Origin: Euzebya pacifica
GTDB taxonomy: Bacteria > Actinomycetota > Nitriliruptoria > Euzebyales > Euzebyaceae
Assembly (NCBI RefSeq): GCF_003344865.1
Contig: NZ_CP031165.1
Coordinates: 4,407,910 to 4,471,909, forward strand
DNA length: 64,000 nucleotides
Direction of reading: 5' to 3'
The notes beneath the pieces are model-generated. The model saw nothing but the letters and a program-made list of their open reading frames with translations, was not told the origin of the DNA and searched no databases. Position numbers and translations under genes: made by a program. Shown in pieces: positions 7,374 to 16,898 of the stretch. Each line of letters begins with the position of its first letter. Positions within the stretch are counted from its first letter, which is position 1.

Positions 7374-8339
7374 TCAGACCCCGACGACCGGCAGGTTGCG
7401 GAGCTTGGCCGGGAGGGCGAAGTGCATGTCCTCCTCGATCACGTCGAGGCGTTCGACGACCGCACCGCGGTCCTGCGCCTGCAGCCAGTCGATGACACCG
7501 GTCACCAGCTGGTCGGGCGCGCTGGCGCCGGAGGTCAGCCCGATCGTGTCCACGCCCTCGAGCCACGCCGGGTCGATGTGGGTGGCGTCGTCGATCAGGT
7601 GGGCAGCCGGGGCGCCGTGGCCCAGGGCCACCTCGACCATCCGCTGGGAGTTGGAGGAGTTCTCGCTGCCGACGACCAGCACGAGGTCGCTGCGCTCGCT
7701 GAGCACCTTGGTGGCGTCCTGCCGGTTCTGGGTGGCGTAGCAGATGTCGTCGCCCTTGGGGCCCCGGGCCAGCGGGTACCGCTCCTTGATGGCGGCGATG
7801 ATGCCGGTGGTCTCGTCGACGCTGAGGGTCGTCTGGCTGACGTAGGCGACCTTGGTGGGGTCGGGCAGGTCCAGCTCGGCGACGTCCTCGGGGGTCTCGA
7901 CGAGGTTGATGGATTCCGGCGCCTGTCCCATCGTCCCGACGACCTCCTGGTGGCCCTCGTGGCCGATGAGGATGATCGACATCCCCTTCTCGGCGTACTC
8001 GCGGGCCTCGAAGTGGACCTTGGTGACCAGCGGACAGGTCGCATCGATCTGGTCCAGGCCACGGGCGGCGGCACGTTCGCGCACCTCCGGTGGGATGCCG
8101 TGGGCGGAGAACACGATGACGCCGCCCTCGGGCACCTCGTCCTCGTCCTCGACGAACACCGCGCCGCGGGACTCGAGGTCGGCGACGACGTGGGTGTTGT
8201 GCACGATCGCGTGACGCACGTAGACGGGGGCGCCGTAGTGCTCCAGGGCGATGTCGACGATCTCGATGGCCCTGTCGACACCGGCGCAGAACCCGCGCGG
8301 GGCGGCCAGCAGGACGGTACGGGGAGAGGTGGCGGTCAT
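7374..8339 (-). CDS. ispH: 4-hydroxy-3-methylbut-2-enyl diphosphate reductase
   Basis: Last step of the MEP isoprenoid pathway, reducing HMBPP to IPP and DMAPP with a 4Fe-4S cluster. The 321-residue product has the three cluster cysteines in their family contexts: GFCAGVDRA (Cys18), [11 protein letters not shown] and [11 protein letters not shown]. The substrate-binding ESINLVET-like and [11 protein letters not shown] segments are also present. The ATG at 8339 is chosen instead of the in-frame GTG at 8357 because a TAGGCT -10 lies between them, predicting a leaderless message. The gene is divergent from the EthD-like gene. Confidence 0.96.
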
Positions 8340-8346
8340 CACGGCC

Positions 8347-8352
8347 AGCCTA
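8347..8352 (-). promoter_or_regulatory. -10 element (TAGGCT), leaderless start of ispH
   Basis: TAGGCT with 7 bases to the ATG at 8339. This sets the ispH start. Confidence 0.5.
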
Positions 8353-8431
8353 GCCACTGCGACACCTGCCCCAACCCCTCCGGTGACCTATGGTGCGCCG
8401 GGACATCAACCGATCACGAGAGGACCAACCA

Positions 8432-8743
8432 GTGGCCAGCTTCATCGCCATGTACACCAAGCCCGAGGACGCCGAGGGCTTCCTCGCGGAGTACAAGGCC
8501 GACCACCTTCCCATCTGCGAGAAGTTCCCCAACACCACCCGTCAGTCGCTGACGGTGCTCAAGTCGACCCCCCGCCGCACCGAGCCGGCCTACTTCCTGC
8601 TGTTCGAGGCCGAGTGGGCCTCGGAGGCGGAGATGTTCGAGGCCATGAAGGACCCGTCCCTCATGGAGGCCAGCGGCCACGCCATCGGCCTGCTGAAGAA
8701 GTACGGCAACGCCGCGGAGATGATGCTCGGCGACAGCGCCTAG
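8432..8743 (+). CDS. EthD-like / dimeric alpha-beta barrel protein
   Basis: A 103-residue protein beginning VASFIAMYTKPEDAEGF, a pattern of the ferredoxin-like dimeric alpha/beta barrel superfamily that includes EthD and ABM monooxygenase-like proteins. Features are the first beta strand with Tyr-Thr, a PICEKFP turn, and the strand AYFLLFEAEW followed by a helix (EMFEAMKDP). These proteins are small oxidative or degradative enzymes whose exact role is usually unknown. GTG at 8432 is chosen because GAGAGG lies eight bases upstream; an in-frame start at 8390 has no such support. A hairpin follows at 8770-8803. Confidence 0.75.
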   Translation: MASFIAMYTKPEDAEGFLAEYKADHLPICEKFPNTTRQSLTVLKSTPRRTEPAYFLLFEAEWASEAEMFEAMKDPSLMEASGHAIGLLKKYGNAAEMMLGDSA

Positions 8744-8826: not shown

Positions 8827-9480
8827 ATGCACATCATCGTTGGAGGTTGCGGGCGCGTTGGCGCCGATCTGGCCGAACGGCTCAGCGACGAGGGCCACGA
8901 CGTCGTGGTCATCGACGCCAGCGACGAGGCGTTCCGCCGGATCGGCACGACGTTCAACGGCGAGGCCCTGGTCGGTGACATCACCGACAAGGAGGTCCTG
9001 TCGCGCGCCGGCGTGGAGCGGGCCGACGCCCTGGCGGCCGTCACGCCGTCGGACAACGCCAACCTGATGGCGGTGCAGATCGCCAAGGAGCTCTTTGACG
9101 TCCCCAACACCGTTGCGCGCCTGTTCAACCCACAGCGGGAACCGTCCTATCGCAAGATGGGCATCCGCTACGTGCCCGAGACCTCGATGATCGTCTCGGC
9201 CATCCGCAACGACCTCGAACCCGAGTCCTTCCCCGTGCACCTGTCGCGGGCCGAGGACGACGTCTCGCTGGTCGAGGTGCTCATCGGTGACCACGGGCGG
9301 GGCGTCTCGGTTGCCGAGGTCGAACGCGACGGCGACGCCCGGGTGGCCAAGCTGCAGCGCGGCGTGCGCATGCAGATCCCCCGGCTCGACGACCGCTTCC
9401 GCGAGGGGGACCTCGTCGTCTGCGCCGTCCGGCGCAGCGGTGAACGCCGGTTGCGCCACCTGCTGCTGGGGAGGGACTGA
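8827..9480 (+). CDS. trkA: TrkA-type potassium channel NAD-binding subunit (first copy)
   Basis: A 217-residue cytosolic regulatory subunit of a Trk/Ktr potassium transporter. Residues 1-120 form a Rossmann RCK_N domain with the dinucleotide motif GGCGRVG at 6-12 and the acidic residue ending the second strand (VVVIDAS). Residues about 135-215 form an RCK_C domain (VSLVEVLIG, LVVCAVRR). It is half the size of E. coli TrkA, as in the actinobacterial CeoB/CeoC pair, and would form a ring with itself or with the next gene product. It begins a seven-gene overlapping operon. Its stop codon overlaps the next start by one base (TGATG). Confidence 0.93.
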   Translation: MHIIVGGCGRVGADLAERLSDEGHDVVVIDASDEAFRRIGTTFNGEALVGDITDKEVLSRAGVERADALAAVTPSDNANLMAVQIAKELFDVPNTVARLFNPQREPSYRKMGIRYVPETSMIVSAIRNDLEPESFPVHLSRAEDDVSLVEVLIGDHGRGVSVAEVERDGDARVAKLQRGVRMQIPRLDDRFREGDLVVCAVRRSGERRLRHLLLGRD

Positions 9481-10145
9481 TGTACGCCGTCATCGCGGGT
9501 GGCGGCAAGGTCGGGCGCGCCATCGCCGGCGACCTGCTGGCCGAGGGCAACGAGGTCGCGGTCATCGAGATGATCCCCGAGCGGCTCGAGGCGCTGCAGC
9601 AGCGCCACGACCTGCTGGTCATCGCCGGTGATGCCACCGACGTGCGCTACCTCGAGCAGACCCGCCTGCAGCGCGCCGACGTGTTCGTGGCGACCACCCG
9701 CACCGACGACGTCAACTACGTCGCCTGCCAGCTGGCCAAGATCTCCTTCGACGTGCCCCGGGTGCTGAGCCGTGTGAACTCCCCCCGCAACGAGGCCCTG
9801 TTCCAGACCATGGGCATCGAGGCGGTGTCGACCACGACGTTGATCTCCCGCCTGATCCGCGAGCAGGCCACGGTGGGCGAGCTGATCCACCTCTACACCC
9901 TGCGCGCCGGGCAGGTGAACCTCGTGGAGATCGACGTGCCCCACGACTTCCCGGGCTACAAGCGCAACGTCAGCGAGCTGACCCTGCCGATGGAGTCGGT
10001 GCTGGTCTGCGTGTTCCGTGGCGAAGCCACCCTGATCCCCCGCGGTGACACCCGCCTGGCGGCCGGCGATCAGGTCATCGCCCTGACGACGCCGGACCTG
10101 GAGGACGCGCTGCGCGCATCGATCCTGGATCCCACGGCCCCATGA
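9480..10145 (+). CDS. TrkA-type potassium channel NAD-binding subunit (second copy)
   Basis: A 221-residue RCK protein paralogous to the preceding gene. The dinucleotide motif GGGKVG is at residues 7-12, with AVIEM closing the second strand. The C-terminal RCK_C half carries VNLVEIDVPHDF and a final strand with DQVIALTTPD. Two adjacent short TrkA genes mirror ceoB-ceoC of mycobacteria and may assemble as a heteromeric ring on one or both TrkH pores encoded downstream. The start ATG overlaps the upstream stop, and its own stop overlaps the next small gene in an ATGA arrangement. Confidence 0.93.
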   Translation: MYAVIAGGGKVGRAIAGDLLAEGNEVAVIEMIPERLEALQQRHDLLVIAGDATDVRYLEQTRLQRADVFVATTRTDDVNYVACQLAKISFDVPRVLSRVNSPRNEALFQTMGIEAVSTTTLISRLIREQATVGELIHLYTLRAGQVNLVEIDVPHDFPGYKRNVSELTLPMESVLVCVFRGEATLIPRGDTRLAAGDQVIALTTPDLEDALRASILDPTAP

Positions 10146-10303
10146 GCACCCCTCCTCCGGGCAAGCGCCGGCTGCGCGACGTCGTCGACGAGCACCCCTT
10201 CCAGGGTGGCCTGACCGGCATCCTCCTGGTGGCCCTCGCCACGCTCGCGATGGCCGTCGCCGCCGCGGGCCTGGTCGGCCTGATGCTGCTGATCGCCGGC
10301 TGA
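10142..10303 (+). CDS. 53-residue single-pass membrane peptide of the Trk operon
   Basis: A small gene lies between trkA and trkH, starting at ATG 10142 inside the upstream stop (ATGA) and ending at 10303, five bases before the trkH GTG. The product has a basic, proline-rich N-terminus (STPPPGKRRLRDVVDEHPF), then one hydrophobic helix of about 27 residues (TGILLVALATLAMAVAAA onward) and ends ...LLIAG. By the positive-inside rule the N-terminus is cytosolic. Its position and coupling suggest a small subunit or assembly factor of the potassium transporter, like KdpF in the Kdp system. I do not recognise the family. Confidence 0.65.
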   Translation: MSTPPPGKRRLRDVVDEHPFQGGLTGILLVALATLAMAVAAAGLVGLMLLIAG

Positions 10304-10307
10304 CCCC

Positions 10308-11813
10308 GTGCTGATCAGGCCCGACGCCGGTGACTTCCGGCTGATCCTGCTCTACACCTCACGCGTGGTGTACGGGGTGGGCCTCGCCATGCTCGTGCCG
10401 GCGGCCGTGGCCGTTGCCTTCGGGGAACGCATGGACGCGTGGAGCTTCGTGCTCGCCGCCTCCCTGGCGATCGGCATCGGGCGCCTCTCGGAGATGTTCC
10501 TGCAGACCAGGCGACCGCTGAACACCTCCCATGCGCTGGCATCCGTGGCGTCCTCCTGGCTGGTGGTGCCGCTCTTCGGTGCCCTGCCCCTGGTCCTCAG
10601 CGGGCACTACGTCAGCTACCTGGATGCCTACTTCGAGGCGATGTCGGGGTTCGCCACCATCGGGTTGACGCTGGCCAACGACCTGGACCACATGTCCCGT
10701 AGCGTCAACCTGTGGCGCCACCTCATGCAGTTCATCGGCGGCCAGGGCATCGTCGTCATCGTCCTGACGGCGTTCTCCTCCGGCGCGGCACGCCTCGGGA
10801 CGCTGTACTCCGGCGAGGGGCGCGAGGACGTCATCCTGCCCAACATCGTGCGGACGGCGCGGTTCATCTGGCGGGTCGCGCTGGTCTACGGCGTCATCGG
10901 CACCGGGGTGCTGTGGGCGGCGCTCATCGCGGCCGGGCTCGGGGTCGGCGAGGGCCTCTACCACGGCGTCAACCTGTTCATGGCGGCCTTCGACACCGGC
11001 GGGTTCTCCACCCAGTCCTCCAGCGTCGCCTTCTACCGCTCGCAGCTCGTCGAGACGGTGCTGCTGGTCATCATGACCGCCGGGGCCTTCAGCTTCGCCC
11101 TGCACTACCAGCTGTGGCAGGGACGACGCCGGGAGCTGCTGGCCAACACCGAGACCCGCACCGTCTTCCTGTCCACGCTGCTGCTCCTGGCGATCGCCGC
11201 CCTCGGACTGGCCCGCACCGAGACCTTCACCGGGTTCTTCGAGCTGTACCGGCACACGCTGTTCCAGGTCGTCAGCGCCCACACGACGACGGGGCTCGCC
11301 ACCGTGCCCGGCCGCCTGTTCGTCACCGACTGGGGTGCGTTGGCACCGGCCTCGATCGTGGCGGCGATGGCCATCGGGGGCATGGCCGGTTCCACGGCTG
11401 GCGGCATCAAGGGCATCCGCCTCGGCGTGGTGCTCAAGGGCCTCAAGGCCGACGTCCGCCGGGTGCTGCTGCCCGAGAACGCCGTCGTCATGGAGACCTA
11501 TCACGCCGGGGTGCGCAAGATCGTCCAGGGCCCGCAGGTCCGCGACGCCGCGCTCCTGCTGCTGCTCTGGCTCGGCCTGTACCTCGTCGGCGCGCTCGTC
11601 GGGTTGTTCTACGGCTACCCGCTGGAGCTCAGCCTGTTCGAGTCCACCGCCGCTGCGTCCTCGGGGGGCCTCAGCATCGGCATCGTCAGGCCCGACCTGG
11701 AGACCCCCCTCAAGCTGGTCTACATCGCCCAGATGGTGGTGGGCCGCCTCGAGTTCATCGCCGTCTTCGCCCTGATCGGCTACGCCGTGTCCGTCGTCAG
11801 GGGCAAGGTGTGA
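10308..11813 (+). CDS. trkH: TrkH-type potassium transporter pore subunit (first copy)
   Basis: A 501-residue membrane protein of the TrkH/KtrB superfamily, the potassium-translocating pore. The four pore-loop repeats with their filter glycines are visible: FATIGLT, AFDTGGFST, AHTTTGLAT and ASSGGLSIG. The fold has the expected four M1-P-M2 units plus an extra N-terminal hairpin. The segment LWRHLMQFIGGQGI and the intramembrane AGSTAGGIKG loop are family hallmarks. GTG at 10308 is the start, five bases after the 53-residue peptide gene. Its last four bases overlap the following OB-like gene (GTGA). Confidence 0.94.
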   Translation: MLIRPDAGDFRLILLYTSRVVYGVGLAMLVPAAVAVAFGERMDAWSFVLAASLAIGIGRLSEMFLQTRRPLNTSHALASVASSWLVVPLFGALPLVLSGHYVSYLDAYFEAMSGFATIGLTLANDLDHMSRSVNLWRHLMQFIGGQGIVVIVLTAFSSGAARLGTLYSGEGREDVILPNIVRTARFIWRVALVYGVIGTGVLWAALIAAGLGVGEGLYHGVNLFMAAFDTGGFSTQSSSVAFYRSQLVETVLLVIMTAGAFSFALHYQLWQGRRRELLANTETRTVFLSTLLLLAIAALGLARTETFTGFFELYRHTLFQVVSAHTTTGLATVPGRLFVTDWGALAPASIVAAMAIGGMAGSTAGGIKGIRLGVVLKGLKADVRRVLLPENAVVMETYHAGVRKIVQGPQVRDAALLLLLWLGLYLVGALVGLFYGYPLELSLFESTAAASSGGLSIGIVRPDLETPLKLVYIAQMVVGRLEFIAVFALIGYAVSVVRGKV

Positions 11814-12526
11814 ACGAGGAGTACCGCCCGACACCCCGCCGCGAGGTTGCGCTGTGGGTGCTCGTCGCGCTCGCGGCCGTCGCGGCGATGGTCGGCCTCG
11901 GGGAGGCGCTGCGACACGACCACCCGGCCGCGGGTGTGCAGACACCGGAGCTGACCGAGGAGATCGACCCGCTGCGCGAGGACGTGCCGTGCGAGCTGCC
12001 GGCCGGTCGCGAGGGCGCGGACCGTCCGGTCGTCGTGGCCGCCCCCGAGCTTCCCCAGCTGGTCAACTCCAACGAGCTGTACGACTGCCCGGCCACGTGG
12101 GACGGTCGTCGCGTCCGGTACGTCGGCGAGGTCGTCGGCGCGGTCCTGGAGCGTCGTGACGGCGCCTGGGTGCAGCTCAACGACGACGTCTACGCCGACG
12201 GCGTGGGACCGCTGCCCACCCACCGGGACTTCCGCGGCGGCAACGCCGGCATCGGTGTCCGCATGACCCGCGACCAGGCCGCCCGCATCGACAACGTGGG
12301 CGGTGCCACCCAACGTGGCGACCTGGTCGAGGTGGTCGCGGAGTTCCGCCGCGTCGATCCCGAGACCGCGGAGGTGGCGATCCTGCACGTGGAGACGATG
12401 CGGATCCTGCGACGCGGTGAACCCTTCGACGTTCCCGACGCCCCGGCCCGACCGGCCGTGGCCCTCGTGGCGGCCCTCGGGGCGCTGACGATCGTGGTGA
12501 TCGAGCGACGCCGGCGCGAGCGGTGA
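11810..12526 (+). CDS. Membrane-anchored OB-like protein of the Trk operon (first copy)
   Basis: A 238-residue protein with an N-terminal helix (residues 14-33), a soluble middle and a C-terminal helix (about 212-230) followed by a basic tail RRRRER. Charge distribution puts both ends in the cytosol and the middle outside. The middle has the look of a small beta-barrel (OB-like): CPATWDGRRVRYVGEVVG, then WVQLNDDVY and RGDLVEVVAEF. The same pattern recurs in the protein encoded at 14028, so these are paralogues, each placed directly after a TrkH. It overlaps both neighbouring genes by four bases. Function is unknown; an external accessory or gating subunit for its TrkH is inferred. Confidence 0.75.
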   Translation: MNEEYRPTPRREVALWVLVALAAVAAMVGLGEALRHDHPAAGVQTPELTEEIDPLREDVPCELPAGREGADRPVVVAAPELPQLVNSNELYDCPATWDGRRVRYVGEVVGAVLERRDGAWVQLNDDVYADGVGPLPTHRDFRGGNAGIGVRMTRDQAARIDNVGGATQRGDLVEVVAEFRRVDPETAEVAILHVETMRILRRGEPFDVPDAPARPAVALVAALGALTIVVIERRRRER

Positions 12527-14031
12527 CGCTCACCCTCAGACCCGACCTCGGCGACCTCGCCACGATCGCACAGCTGGTCGCCCGGGTGGTGGCGGTCGTC
12601 TCCCTCGCCATGCTGCTCCCGGCGCTGTTCGGCCTGGTCAACGGCGAACGCGACGCTGCCGCCGTCATGGTGTTCGGCGCCGCGCTCGGCCTGCTGCTCA
12701 GCGGGATCGCCGAGCTGCTGCTGCCTGCGGTGGACGACGTCAGCTGGGGCGAGGGCATGGTCGCCGCTGGCCTGTCGTGGCTCGTTGCGCCGTTGGTGTG
12801 CGCGCTGCCGCTGTACGCCTCCGGGTACTTCCCGACCTTCCTGCACGCCTACTTCGACGCCATGTCGGCGCTGACGTGCGCCGGCCTGTCGGTCCTCAAC
12901 GACCTCGACCACCTGCCCGACGCGCTGAACCTGTGGCGCCACCTGATGCAGTTCCTGGGCGGCCAGGGGATCATCCTCGTCGTGCTGACCTTCTTCGCCG
13001 GGGGCGGTGGCGCGGTCGGCATGTACGCCGGTGAGGCCCGTGAGGACAAGATCCTGCCCAACGTCCGTCGGACGGCCCGGTTCATCTGGCGCGCCTCGCT
13101 GGTCTACTTCGTCATCGGCGGGTCGGCGCTGACGCTGGCGCTGATCGCCGACGGCATGGCGCCGGGGTCGGCCGCCTTCCACGCCACCAACTTGTTCTTC
13201 GCCGCGTTCGACACCGGCGGGTTCGCACCCCGGTCCAGCTCGGTCGGCTACTACCACTCCGCCGCGGTCGAGGGAGTGCTGATCGTCCTCATGGTGGCCG
13301 GCGCGCTCAGCTTCGCCCTGCACTATCGCCTGTGGCAGGGCGACGCCCGGGAGATGCGACGCAACCTGGAGACCAGGGTGCTGGCCATCAGCTTCACGCT
13401 GCTCTCGACGATGATGTTCGCCGGCCTCGTCACCGAGCTCGTCCACGAGGACTTCGTGGCCACCCTCCGGCGTGGGCTGTTCCAGATGGTCAGCGCCCAC
13501 AGCGGCGCCGGGTTCGCGTCCGTGCCCGGGACGCTGTTCTCCAGCGCCTGGGGCGTCCTGGCACCCGGCGCGCTGATCCTCGCCATGACCATCGGTGGGA
13601 TGTCGGGGTCGACCACCGGGGGCATCAAGGCCATCCGCCTGGGGCTGGTCGGCAAGCAGCTGGCCCGGGTCGCCCGGCAGGTCGCCCTGCCCCGCGACGC
13701 CGTCGTGGTCAGCCGCTACCACCACCTGACCACCCACGTCCTCAACCCGGACGTCGCCCGGGCCGCCACGATGGTGCTGCTGCTGTTCGGGGCGCTCTAC
13801 CTCTCGGGTACCGCCGTCGGCCTGTTCTACGGCTACCCGCTGGAGGAGTCGCTGTTCGAGTCCACGTCGGCGGCCGCCGGGGTGGGCCTGAGCGTCGGCA
13901 TCACGTCGCCGACGATGCCGGCCCCGCTGATGGCCACCTACGTCGGGCAGATGTACCTGGGCCGGCTGGAGTTCATCTCCGCGCTCGCGCTGATGGGCTA
14001 CGTGCACTCGATGCTGCGGGGCAGGCGATGA
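12523..14031 (+). CDS. TrkH-type potassium transporter pore subunit (second copy)
   Basis: A 502-residue paralogue of the preceding TrkH. Filter loops read LTCAGLS, AFDTGGFAP, AHSGAGFAS and AAGVGLSVG, so all four glycines are kept while flanking residues differ (Cys-Ala in the first loop, Gly-Ala in the third). That may change affinity or selectivity toward sodium. The hallmark segments LWRHLMQFLGGQGI and SGSTTGGIKAIRLG are conserved. It starts at GTG 12523 inside the stop of the first OB-like gene and ends inside the start of the second. Tandem duplication of a TrkH plus OB-like module is the simplest origin. Confidence 0.93.
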   Translation: MTLTLRPDLGDLATIAQLVARVVAVVSLAMLLPALFGLVNGERDAAAVMVFGAALGLLLSGIAELLLPAVDDVSWGEGMVAAGLSWLVAPLVCALPLYASGYFPTFLHAYFDAMSALTCAGLSVLNDLDHLPDALNLWRHLMQFLGGQGIILVVLTFFAGGGGAVGMYAGEAREDKILPNVRRTARFIWRASLVYFVIGGSALTLALIADGMAPGSAAFHATNLFFAAFDTGGFAPRSSSVGYYHSAAVEGVLIVLMVAGALSFALHYRLWQGDAREMRRNLETRVLAISFTLLSTMMFAGLVTELVHEDFVATLRRGLFQMVSAHSGAGFASVPGTLFSSAWGVLAPGALILAMTIGGMSGSTTGGIKAIRLGLVGKQLARVARQVALPRDAVVVSRYHHLTTHVLNPDVARAATMVLLLFGALYLSGTAVGLFYGYPLEESLFESTSAAAGVGLSVGITSPTMPAPLMATYVGQMYLGRLEFISALALMGYVHSMLRGRR

Positions 14032-14675
14032 CCCGCGTCCCGACCCGCCTGCAGGGGCTGGTGATCCTGCTGGCCTGCCTCGCCGCCGCGGGGGGCCTTG
14101 CCATCGCGGCGGGGGCGGTCCGACCCTCGCCGGGGGACCCGCTGCTGCGAGGAGGCGGTGTCGCCGCCCGGACCTGCGCATCGGCGGTGGCGCTGGTCGA
14201 GCCGGTGCCGGTGTCCAGCGGCACGCTGCACGGCTGCCCCGAACGGTTCGACGGACGTCGGGTCGTCGTCGTGGGCGAGGCGGTGGGCGACCTGCTGGGC
14301 CGTGGCGATCGTCGCTGGGTCCAGGTCAACGACGACGCCTATGCGACGGCCGGGCCCCTGTCGGCACATGGCCGACCGCTCGGGACCAACAGCGGCGTGG
14401 CCGTCCTGTTGCCTGCTGGGCGCAACCCCTCCGTGCTGGGCGGCCCGGACCGCTGGGGCGACCTGGTCGAGGTCGTCGGCATCTTCCACACGACCGCCGC
14501 GGAGGACCAGGGCGGTCCGGCGGTGATCGCAGAGGAGATGACGGTGCTCGAGCGCGGCCGGACGGTGGCCGAGCTGCCGCTGGGGACGCTGCCGGTCGCG
14601 ACCGGCACGCTCCTGGTCGCCGCGGGCGGGGTGTGGGGCCTGATCGGCCGTCGTCGTTGGCAGCTCCGCTACTGA
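14028..14675 (+). CDS. Membrane-anchored OB-like protein of the Trk operon (second copy)
   Basis: A 215-residue paralogue of the 11810 product. It has an N-terminal helix (about 9-29), a soluble middle and a C-terminal helix (about 187-205) ending in a basic tail. Shared signature: CPERFDGRRVVVVGEAVG, WVQVNDDAY and WGDLVEVVGIF. The first cysteine of that signature and one upstream (RTCAS) could form a disulfide outside the cell; the other paralogue also has a second cysteine upstream (VPCEL). It starts in the stop of the second trkH (ATGA) and closes the operon seven bases before the convergent nth stop. Function unknown. Confidence 0.72.
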   Translation: MTRVPTRLQGLVILLACLAAAGGLAIAAGAVRPSPGDPLLRGGGVAARTCASAVALVEPVPVSSGTLHGCPERFDGRRVVVVGEAVGDLLGRGDRRWVQVNDDAYATAGPLSAHGRPLGTNSGVAVLLPAGRNPSVLGGPDRWGDLVEVVGIFHTTAAEDQGGPAVIAEEMTVLERGRTVAELPLGTLPVATGTLLVAAGGVWGLIGRRRWQLRY

Positions 14676-14682
14676 CCGCGGC

Positions 14683-15444
14683 TCAGTCGGTGCCGACGGC
14701 CCGTGCCTGCTTGGCCTTGTCCCGCCGGCCCGCGATCAGCGAGGAGGGGCAGAGGTCCTCGACCACGCAGCTGCCGCACCTGGGACGCAGCGCGTCGCAG
14801 ACCCGACGACCGTGCAGGATGATGACGAGGCTGGCCGGGCCGTACTGCTGCCGCGGGAACAGCCGCATCAGGTCCTTCTCGATCTTGACCGCGTCGTCGT
14901 TGCGGGTGAAGCCGAACCGCTTGGACAGCCGGGTCACGTGGGTGTCGACGGCGATGCCCGCGTCGGGGTCCTCCAGCAACGCCTCGGGCGCCGACCCGGC
15001 AAGGACGACGTTTGCCGTCTTGCGGGCCACCCCGGGCAGGGTGACCAGGTCGGCCATCCGCAGGGGCACTTCGCCGTCGAAGTCCTCGATCAGCGCCTGG
15101 CAGATACCCCGGATCGACTTGGTCTTCTGCCGGTAGAAGCCCGAGGACTTGATGTCGGTCTGCAGCTCCTCCTCGGGGACCGACAGGTAGTCCTCGGGGG
15201 TGCGGTACTTCACGAACAGCGTCTTGGTGATCTCGTTGATCTTCTTGTCCGTCGACTGCGCCGACATCACCGTGGCGATCAGCAGCTCGAAAGGGCTGGT
15301 GTGGTCCAGCTCGATGACGCCACCCTCGTAGGCCTCCATCAGGCGTTCGACGATGACGGGCGCCCGCAACGTCTTGCCGCTGTCGCGGTCGAGCGGACGG
15401 CCCGTCGAGGGCACGGAGGTGGTGGCGTCGGTGGAGTCAGGCAT
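14683..15444 (-). CDS. nth: Endonuclease III (base-excision DNA glycosylase/AP lyase)
   Basis: Removes oxidised pyrimidines and cleaves abasic sites. The 253-residue product has the helix-hairpin-helix with catalytic Lys (LVTLPGVARKTANVV), the catalytic Asp (VDTHVTRLSKRFG), and the C-terminal 4Fe-4S pattern C-x6-C-x2-C-x5-C (from CDALRPRC to LC). A serine- and threonine-rich N-terminal extension of about 25 residues precedes the fold. A TAGGCT -10 stands 9 bases before the ATG at 15444. It is convergent with the Trk operon. Confidence 0.95.
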   Translation of the reverse strand: MPDSTDATTSVPSTGRPLDRDSGKTLRAPVIVERLMEAYEGGVIELDHTSPFELLIATVMSAQSTDKKINEITKTLFVKYRTPEDYLSVPEEELQTDIKSSGFYRQKTKSIRGICQALIEDFDGEVPLRMADLVTLPGVARKTANVVLAGSAPEALLEDPDAGIAVDTHVTRLSKRFGFTRNDDAVKIEKDLMRLFPRQQYGPASLVIILHGRRVCDALRPRCGSCVVEDLCPSSLIAGRRDKAKQARAVGTD

Positions 15445-15488: not shown

Positions 15489-16898
15489 TCACTCGCCGGG
15501 CGTGAACGCCTCGTTGGCCAGGAGCGTCGCGTCGACCTGCAGGAGGAACAGCCCGTCGTAGGCGTTGACGGCCACGACCCCGTCCTCGAAGTACGGGTAG
15601 TTCGACCAGGTCCCGACGAAGCTGGCGTTGTCGTGGTCGGGGAAGACGTCGAAGTGGGCGATCTCCGACAGGGTGCCGCCGTCGTAGAGCCCCTCGGTGT
15701 CGAGGATGCGCAGGCCCGCGGCGTAGTTGGACTGGTACAGCAGGCCGTCGCGTGTGTACATGTTGTGGTCGATCGCGGTGGTCGGGCCGAAGTACTCCAC
15801 CGGCAGCTGCGGCGAGGTGAGGTCCTCGAAGTCGAAGATCATCGTGCGGGTGTTGAACCCGAACCGCTGCTCGTCGGTCTCGTCGCCGAGGAGGAAGAAG
15901 CGGTGGTCCTCCGTCAGCCAGCCCTGGTGGACGTAGCTGGACCGGGTGTAGGGGAACACGCCCAGTCGCACGGGGGCGTTCTTGTCGGTCACGTCGACGA
16001 CGGAGACCCACTGCTCGGCGGCGTTGAAGCACAGCTCGCGACCGGTGAAGCGCGTGTCCGGGCCGTGGTAGGTGACGCACTGCGCGTCGTGGACGTACAG
16101 GTCCAGGGCCGAGCAGCCAGCGGAGGCGGGGGCGGCCGGGTCGGTGATGTCGACGAAGTGCAGGCCACCGCGACCGCACAGGACGTCGTTGACGGTGTTC
16201 CCCGAGGTGCCGCCCACGATGTAGGCCCAGTCGGTGTCGGGGTTGATCACGATGTTGTGGGAGGTGTTGGACGCGTCGCGGTAGTGGGCCGCGGCGGTGT
16301 GGCGACGGTCGGGGGCCTCGTCGAGCCCGTCGAGGGTGGTCAGGTCGAAGACCTGCATGCCGTGCGCGGAGGCCTCGGCCACGATGTAGGCGTGGTTGCC
16401 CCGGACCTTGATGTCCTTCCACACGCTGAACGAGGTCGCCGGGTTGGGCAGCTCGCCGAGGTTCTCCAGCGTCGGCAGGCCGGTGGCGTCGTCGGTGACG
16501 ATGCGGAAGAAGGCCGTGGCGTTGGTCTTGCCCATCAGCACGTACTCGTCCCCGGTCGACGGCGACGTCCAGCCCCACACGTCGCTGCCCTCGATCCGCC
16601 TCTCCGCCGAGCCGTAGCTCTCCTGGCCGAGCGCAGCGACCGGCACGAACGCCAGCAGGTCCACATCGGAGCAGTCGAAGGCGATGCCGCCGACCTCTGC
16701 CTGTCCGTTGGCGCACTGCGCGGCGCCCAGCGGCTGGGTCACGCCGGCGAGGACCTGCGAGGGCGTGCCCTGCATGGCAGCGGACTTGTGGTCGTGCTCG
16801 CGCAGCTCCGCGACGGACCACATGGCCTGCAGCGGGTTGGCGAACGCGAGGGTGCCCAGCAGGAGCAGGGCACAGAGGATGGTGTTGGTACGCGACAC
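15489..16898 (-). CDS. Secreted choice-of-anchor B family protein (LVIVD-type beta-propeller)
   Basis: A 469-residue exported protein. Residues 1-25 are a signal peptide (hydrophobic run ILCALLLLGTLAFA, cleavage probably near LQA). The rest has repeated blades reading like WKDIKVRGNHAYIVAEAS, GMQVFDLTTLDGL, GGLHFVDITDPAAP and RLGVFPYTRSSYVHQGW, the LVIVD repeat pattern that builds a propeller in choice-of-anchor B proteins. Several histidines and acidic residues follow the blades (VHDAQCVTYHGPD, DHNMYTRDG), suggesting a metal site. Substrate is unknown. No C-terminal sorting signal or anchor is visible, so it is probably secreted or loosely wall-bound. GTG at 16898 has AAGGA eight bases upstream. 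Confidence 0.82.
   Translation of the reverse strand: MSRTNTILCALLLLGTLAFANPLQAMWSVAELREHDHKSAAMQGTPSQVLAGVTQPLGAAQCANGQAEVGGIAFDCSDVDLLAFVPVAALGQESYGSAERRIEGSDVWGWTSPSTGDEYVLMGKTNATAFFRIVTDDATGLPTLENLGELPNPATSFSVWKDIKVRGNHAYIVAEASAHGMQVFDLTTLDGLDEAPDRRHTAAAHYRDASNTSHNIVINPDTDWAYIVGGTSGNTVNDVLCGRGGLHFVDITDPAAPASAGCSALDLYVHDAQCVTYHGPDTRFTGRELCFNAAEQWVSVVDVTDKNAPVRLGVFPYTRSSYVHQGWLTEDHRFFLLGDETDEQRFGFNTRTMIFDFEDLTSPQLPVEYFGPTTAIDHNMYTRDGLLYQSNYAAGLRILDTEGLYDGGTLSEIAHFDVFPDHDNASFVGTWSNYPYFEDGVVAVNAYDGLFLLQVDATLLANEAFTPGE

Follow-up and report, generated by a model that had tools for sequence, protein, structure and literature searches.

An OB-fold membrane protein and a one-helix peptide accompany a clade of TrkH potassium pores in Actinomycetota

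A compact seven-gene operon in Euzebya pacifica

The window analysed here is a stretch of 64,000 nucleotides from the genome of Euzebya pacifica, in which positions 8827-14675 form a single compact operon of seven head-to-tail frames on the forward strand. The genes follow the order trkA1, trkA2, a peptide of 53 amino acids, trkH1, OB1, trkH2 and OB2 (Table 1), and the successive junctions measure -1, -4, +4, -4, -4 and -4 bp. All seven frames of the original prediction, made before any database search, were confirmed at their positions. It had described six of the seven genes as touching or overlapping by 1-4 bases; our count is of overlaps of 1-4 bp at five of the six junctions, the sole exception being the 4-bp gap between the peptide and trkH1. 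Inspection of the translations showed that the flanking genes are opposite-facing or separate, and the predicted limits of the operon are therefore right. No KdpB ATPase gene was found in the operon or its immediate neighbours, and no riboswitch was found near it with Rfam. Beyond the endonuclease III-like gene, the reverse strand carries a frame of 469 amino acids with an apparent N-terminal signal sequence (15489-16898).

Table 1. Features of the potassium operon and its flanks in the window
Feature	Position	Strand	Basis
IspH-like frame, flanks the operon	7374-8357	-	Inspection of translation
Short frame, flanks the operon	8390-8743	+	Inspection of translation
trkA1, single-RCK TrkA regulator, 217 aa	8827-9480	+	PF02254 TrkA_N, 99.5 bits
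trkA2, single-RCK TrkA regulator, 221 aa	9480-10145	+	PF02254, 88.1 bits; PF02080 TrkA_C, 36.2 bits
One-helix membrane peptide, 53 aa	10142-10303	+	Comparable transmembrane peptide in this position in 78/81 OB-linked operons that also have trkA upstream
trkH1, potassium pore, 501 aa, GTG start	10308-11813	+	PF02386, 147.9 bits; aligns to solved TrkH (4j9u/3pjz), E 1e-31
D-L-D-H of trkH1, immediately past the first selectivity filter	10680-10691	+	Almost fixed among TrkHs of the OB-linked clade, infrequent in others
OB1, N- and C-terminal helices and OB domain, 238 aa	11810-12526	+	AlphaFold2, PDB comparison, family alignment
OB domain of OB1, residues 81-205	12050-12424	+	Range of structure match, Z 11.2
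trkH2, second potassium pore, 502 aa, GTG start	12523-14031	+	PF02386, 129 bits; falls among other second copies in the TrkH phylogeny
D-L-D-H of trkH2	12901-12912	+	Motif identical to that of trkH1
OB2, second OB membrane protein, 215 aa	14028-14675	+	38% identity to OB1 over 159 aa
Endonuclease III-like frame, flanks the operon	14683-15444	-	Inspection of translation

Pores and cytoplasmic regulators

The assignment of two trkA and two TrkH genes held, as the Pfam TrkA_N domain was recovered in both regulators and the TrkH domain in both pores, the latter against a cut-off of 27 bits for PF02386. These are the only TrkH genes in the whole source genome. Three selectivity filter segments of TrkH1 align by column with those of solved TrkH (G119, G232 and G454), the fourth filter glycine, G329, was matched by eye in the HMMER alignment, and the intramembrane loop is conserved. 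The two pores are paralogues with 50% identity, and the predicted difference in their filter flanks, which read TIG in one and CAG in the other, is real. Both are ordinary members of PF02386, and their conduction of potassium under TrkA control is inferred from sequence alone, without flux or patch-clamp data. The regulators differ in their C-terminal domain: TrkA2 passes the thresholds for both TrkA_N and TrkA_C, while the TrkA_C match of TrkA1 is weak (21.3 bits against a cut-off of 27 bits), on account of which it is conceivable that the two bind different ligands.

An OB domain between two membrane helices

OB1 and OB2 are paralogues (E 8e-23; Table 1), and three motifs previously listed as common to them are present in both. 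An AlphaFold2 model of OB1, built with 35 relatives, has a mean pLDDT of 83 and consists of a helix at residues 10-33, an OB domain at approximately 81-205 and a second helix at 213-237. Its best matches in the PDB are the OB domains of Asp- and Asn-tRNA synthetases, MCM and RPA, with Z between 11.2 and 10 and rmsd of 2-3.5 Å over about 90-100 residues. A divergent family member of 169 amino acids (L195) was modelled with a pLDDT of 96 on an identical plan, with the OB domain between two helices, and likewise matches OB domains (Foldseek E 4e-6). The groups to which the two proteins belong are joined by profile-profile comparison (99.8%, E 1e-28). The criterion of a five-stranded OB barrel is met by confident models of two divergent members together with their PDB matches, and the fold, which the original prediction had called OB-like, is thereby shown. 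Across the family, G106-E107 and G170 (OB1 numbering) are invariant (118 of 118 members), and 98% of members have W120.

No specific relative emerged. Neither OB1 nor OB2 has a credible match in Pfam or NCBIfam, so that identity with a known unrelated family, which had been set out beforehand as grounds for refutation, was checked and not borne out. KdpC was not matched in Pfam by OB1, OB2 or the divergent members at E values up to 1, a search of the OB profile against PDB sequences returned nothing credible, and no relatives were detected in a scan of viral contigs or by tblastn against plasmids. Structure searches with Foldseek and VIA-align returned generic OB domains alone.

Both helices are flanked by basic residues on their far side relative to the OB domain. 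The domain is therefore very probably exposed on the outside of the membrane, an orientation inferred from these residues and not measured. Members from Nitriliruptoria, the class of E. pacifica, carry two additional invariant cysteines (C61 and C93), which might form a disulphide. A motif C-x2-H-x-G-x2-D-x-H, present in 39 of the 59 members outside this class, may represent a metal site restricted to part of the family; both suggestions rest on sequence alone. This motif lends some support to an explanation in which the OB domain senses a metal, sugar, nucleotide or envelope polymer outside the cell and couples this signal to the Trk pore, and ligand binding is common among OB folds. However, the motif occurs in none of the 59 Nitriliruptoria members, among them those of the window, which rules out metal sensing as the common function. 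No ligand is known. The sensor reading is considered unlikely.

Exclusive linkage to TrkH across Actinomycetota

The OB family was found in 108 of 396 genomes in a spread sample of Actinomycetota. Neighbourhoods were inspected for nearly all carriers among these 108 genomes, yielding 144 OB genes. Immediately upstream of 142 of them lies a TrkH gene in the same orientation, and the remaining two begin at a contig edge. Wherever the upstream neighbour could be assessed it is thus TrkH, and the linkage is exclusive, so the outcome that would have counted against the original prediction, homologues mostly unlinked to TrkH, did not materialise. In contigs of GTDB genomes, a set partly overlapping the whole-genome sample, TrkH directly precedes OB in 61 of 62 cases. 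In Nitriliruptoria the OB profile adjoins TrkH on its downstream side at nearly every locus, and OB also follows TrkH in Coriobacteriia, Acidimicrobiia, Anaerosomatales and other groups of the GTDB contigs. Gut genomes resembling Eggerthellaceae, a family inferred from sequence, appear to have the same module. The arrangement is beyond chance, because its layout recurs across Actinomycetota.

At the level of whole genomes, TrkH is present in 107 of the 108 carriers of OB, compared with 118 of the 288 genomes without it (Fisher 1.6e-31). The one exception (G301) is a genome 64% complete whose OB gene is a fragment at a contig edge. The survey covered the Actinomycetota sample and a sample of Spirochaetes, with Firmicutes and other phyla outside its scope; the OB family is absent from 148 of the 149 genomes of the Spirochaetes sample. 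A contig labelled Spirochaetes (L122) carries a trkA-trkA-peptide-trkH-OB operon whose TrkH falls inside the Actinomycetota clade, and is likely to be a misbinned contig or the product of a transfer.

The possession by each pore of an OB of its own is usual without being universal. One locus has a tandem TrkH-TrkH-OB arrangement (L190:1649-5111), in which a single OB protein may serve two pores, and TrkH genes without an OB of their own occur at L059 and L076, tandem TrkHs lacking OB being among the arrangements found; a strict one-to-one pairing is therefore not required. Other variants concern the regulators: at five loci (L205, L208, L209, L211 and L213) at least three trkA genes surround a single TrkH-OB pair, some runs lying downstream of OB, as an expanded RCK set. 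A layout common to three genomes (L079, L080 and L083) has two same-strand TrkH-OB pairs about 8 kb apart, with trkA at just one of them. A further TrkH and OB, split into several frames (L206:6126-8143), are likely a decaying extra copy in a genome with an intact pair (L205).

A one-helix peptide upstream of TrkH

The peptide of the operon, merely listed in the original prediction, is also part of the unit on the evidence of operon conservation. A one-helix frame of 37-68 amino acids lies between trkA2 and trkH in almost all OB-linked operons with trkA upstream (Table 1), whereas a comparable frame was seen in 2 of 18 OB-less operons, namely the TrkH-TrkH-OB operon (L190) and a locus where it looks spurious (L254). 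The main comparison used a strict rule which excludes the tails of longer frames; a transmembrane peptide then precedes 76 of 120 OB-linked TrkHs and 1 of 57 others, again L190 (p 3e-17). A relaxed rule was discarded, as gene tails produced false positives at loci without trkA upstream. The peptide is missing from OB-less trkA-trkA-trkH sets neighbouring OB-bearing ones on the same contigs (L136, L137, L143 and L148), and TrkHs present as second copies, such as trkH2 of the window, have none of their own.

Little sequence is common to the peptides apart from a glycine where the helix begins. The 53-residue peptide has no credible match in Pfam or NCBIfam, and five peptides gave no Pfam match, to KdpF or otherwise, although such short peptides are hard to place by profile. 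The gene content of the unit is shown. The pore and TrkA are unremarkable representatives of established families, and the OB protein and the peptide belong to no family of the libraries searched.

One TrkH clade and paired inheritance

A tree of 172 TrkHs, obtained with a quick search and including a selection of 50 OB-less loci, contains a clade of 122 rows (support 97) which comprises 118 OB-linked and 4 OB-less TrkHs. The other 50 sequences fall outside and none has an OB gene, so the OB family is confined to a single TrkH clade. The four OB-less members are additional TrkHs located within OB operons or next to them (L049, which is cut by a contig end, L059, L076 and L190). On the four contigs with adjacent trkA-trkA-trkH sets mentioned above, the OB-bearing set belongs to the clade and the OB-less set lies outside it.

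Paralogous pairs are inherited together. Distances between OB proteins track those between TrkHs (Mantel r 0.72, 0/999 shuffles), and of 18 comparisons made inside genomes with at least two pairs, 16 show the OB differences following those of their own TrkHs (r 0.70 for the window). In the window, the second TrkH-OB pair groups with the second pairs of related genomes, and the duplication is therefore old.

These data bear on the possibility that the OB gene is an operon passenger with an unrelated envelope function, which merely shares the trkH promoter. Nothing favours this beyond its generic plausibility in compact operons. Against it, no unlinked copy was found among the 144 inspected genes, and OB stays with TrkH when the pair is duplicated into paralogues and also at loci that lack trkA; it is thus regarded as very unlikely.

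A putative contact site at the outer mouth of the pore

In the OB-linked clade, the residues D125, L126, D127 and H128 of TrkH reach 99, 92, 98 and 100%, in comparison to 18, 6, 2 and 8% in other TrkHs. Further clade-specific residues are E249 after the second filter and L468 and Y472 after the fourth. In total, 10 of 18 clade-specific positions are located in outer segments, where 4.3 are expected (p 0.003), the sequence windows having been set after inspection of the data. These residues suggest that the OB domain docks at the outer mouth of TrkH, without showing it; no binding data exist, and the inference is one we hold with slightly more doubt than confidence. Covariation was rejected as evidence for an interface: 118 TrkH-OB pairs first seemed to point to the outer face of TrkH, yet shuffling within groups gave a mean of 16.4 outer pairs against 14 observed.

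Proposed mechanism and significance

The interpretation we favour, and consider likely in the absence of a complex structure or binding data, is a Trk variant with two dedicated extra membrane subunits, the peptide and the extracytoplasmic OB protein. In this model TrkH would form the pore and the two single-RCK TrkAs would regulate it from the cytoplasm, like in known Trk systems, while the peptide of 37-68 residues would sit in the membrane beside the pore. The OB protein would be anchored by its N-terminal helix (or signal sequence) and its C-terminal helix, placing the OB domain on the external side of the membrane, up against the outer mouth of TrkH; there it would modulate conduction or stabilise the assembled pore. 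In the window, where the TrkH-OB pair is duplicated, both pairs would presumably share the two TrkAs and the single peptide. That the accessory proteins physically bind TrkH is a probable inference; genomic linkage alone cannot distinguish a subunit from a dedicated assembly factor.

The original reading of an accessory OB subunit beside TrkH is supported overall; its gating role is not shown, and a role in assembly or stability fits equally well. KdpC was once proposed to cap its pore, and this role has been contradicted by later structures (PMC6255902); similar weight is therefore given here to modulation of gating or conduction and to assembly or stability, and the inference could fall either way. 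In a rival explanation based on the latter, the OB protein and the peptide would be factors for the folding, dimerisation or membrane retention of TrkH, with no part in conduction or gating. The identical linkage evidence supports it, KdpF has been called a lipid-like single spanner, and the gating proposal for KdpC is contradicted by its immobility in later structures (PMC6255902). On the other hand, a role beyond scaffolding is suggested, though not decisively, by the size and order of the OB domain and by the near-invariant TrkH residues at the outer mouth. We regard this rival as unlikely. Returning to the subunit model, a bolder version remains possible, in which a form of Trk widespread in actinobacteria has, beside the peptide, an extracytoplasmic OB subunit that covers the outer pore mouth and controls conduction from outside; this would be a second, independently evolved Kdp-like accessory set on a potassium pore, without an ATPase.

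Trk is among the best-studied bacterial potassium systems and is described as a pore with cytoplasmic RCK regulators. The OB-linked clade, present in about a quarter of the sampled Actinomycetota genomes, adds two conserved components unnamed in family libraries. Nothing relevant to the OB protein, the peptide or accessory subunits of TrkH was found in the literature searched, which left out most subscription journals, and within the same limits no paper mentioned "OB-fold" and "TrkH" together. Should these proteins be true subunits, structural and electrophysiological work on TrkH lacks parts for this branch, and it becomes possible to test whether a Trk pore is controlled from outside.

Comparison with known systems

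Among the closest known systems is TrkH-TrkA of Vibrio parahaemolyticus (3pjz, 4j9u, 6v4j-l), which has in common with the window the TrkH Pfam family and an RCK-type TrkA, and whose filter loops and GG-x-A-G-S-T intramembrane loop align with the TrkH of the window. There, the opening of TrkH accompanies a switch of TrkA from tetramer to dimers upon ATP binding (PMC6987127). That complex consists of TrkH and TrkA only (PMC6987127), whereas the operon of the window adds the peptide, the OB protein and two single-RCK trkA genes, and its TrkH belongs to a separate clade. Loci with trkH followed by trkA and no OB also fall outside the OB-linked clade in the TrkH tree. KtrAB similarly pairs a cytoplasmic RCK subunit with a pore from the superfamily that includes TrkH, but it is described as a two-component system (PMC12059179, PMC5449183).

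The OB domain itself finds its best fold matches in the anticodon-binding OB domains of Asp-, Asn- and Lys-tRNA synthetases (Z of about 11). At 11-21% identity only the fold is common, and the protein of the window is membrane-anchored and gives no hint of nucleic acid binding. In its components, the unit recalls KdpFABC, which likewise comprises a superfamily pore (KdpA), a one-helix peptide (KdpF) and an anchored subunit with an outside domain (KdpC) (PMC6255902). However, the operon lacks the KdpB ATPase and the OB protein matches no KdpC family; the resemblance, drawn by analogy, would be one of layout only and not of sequence homology.
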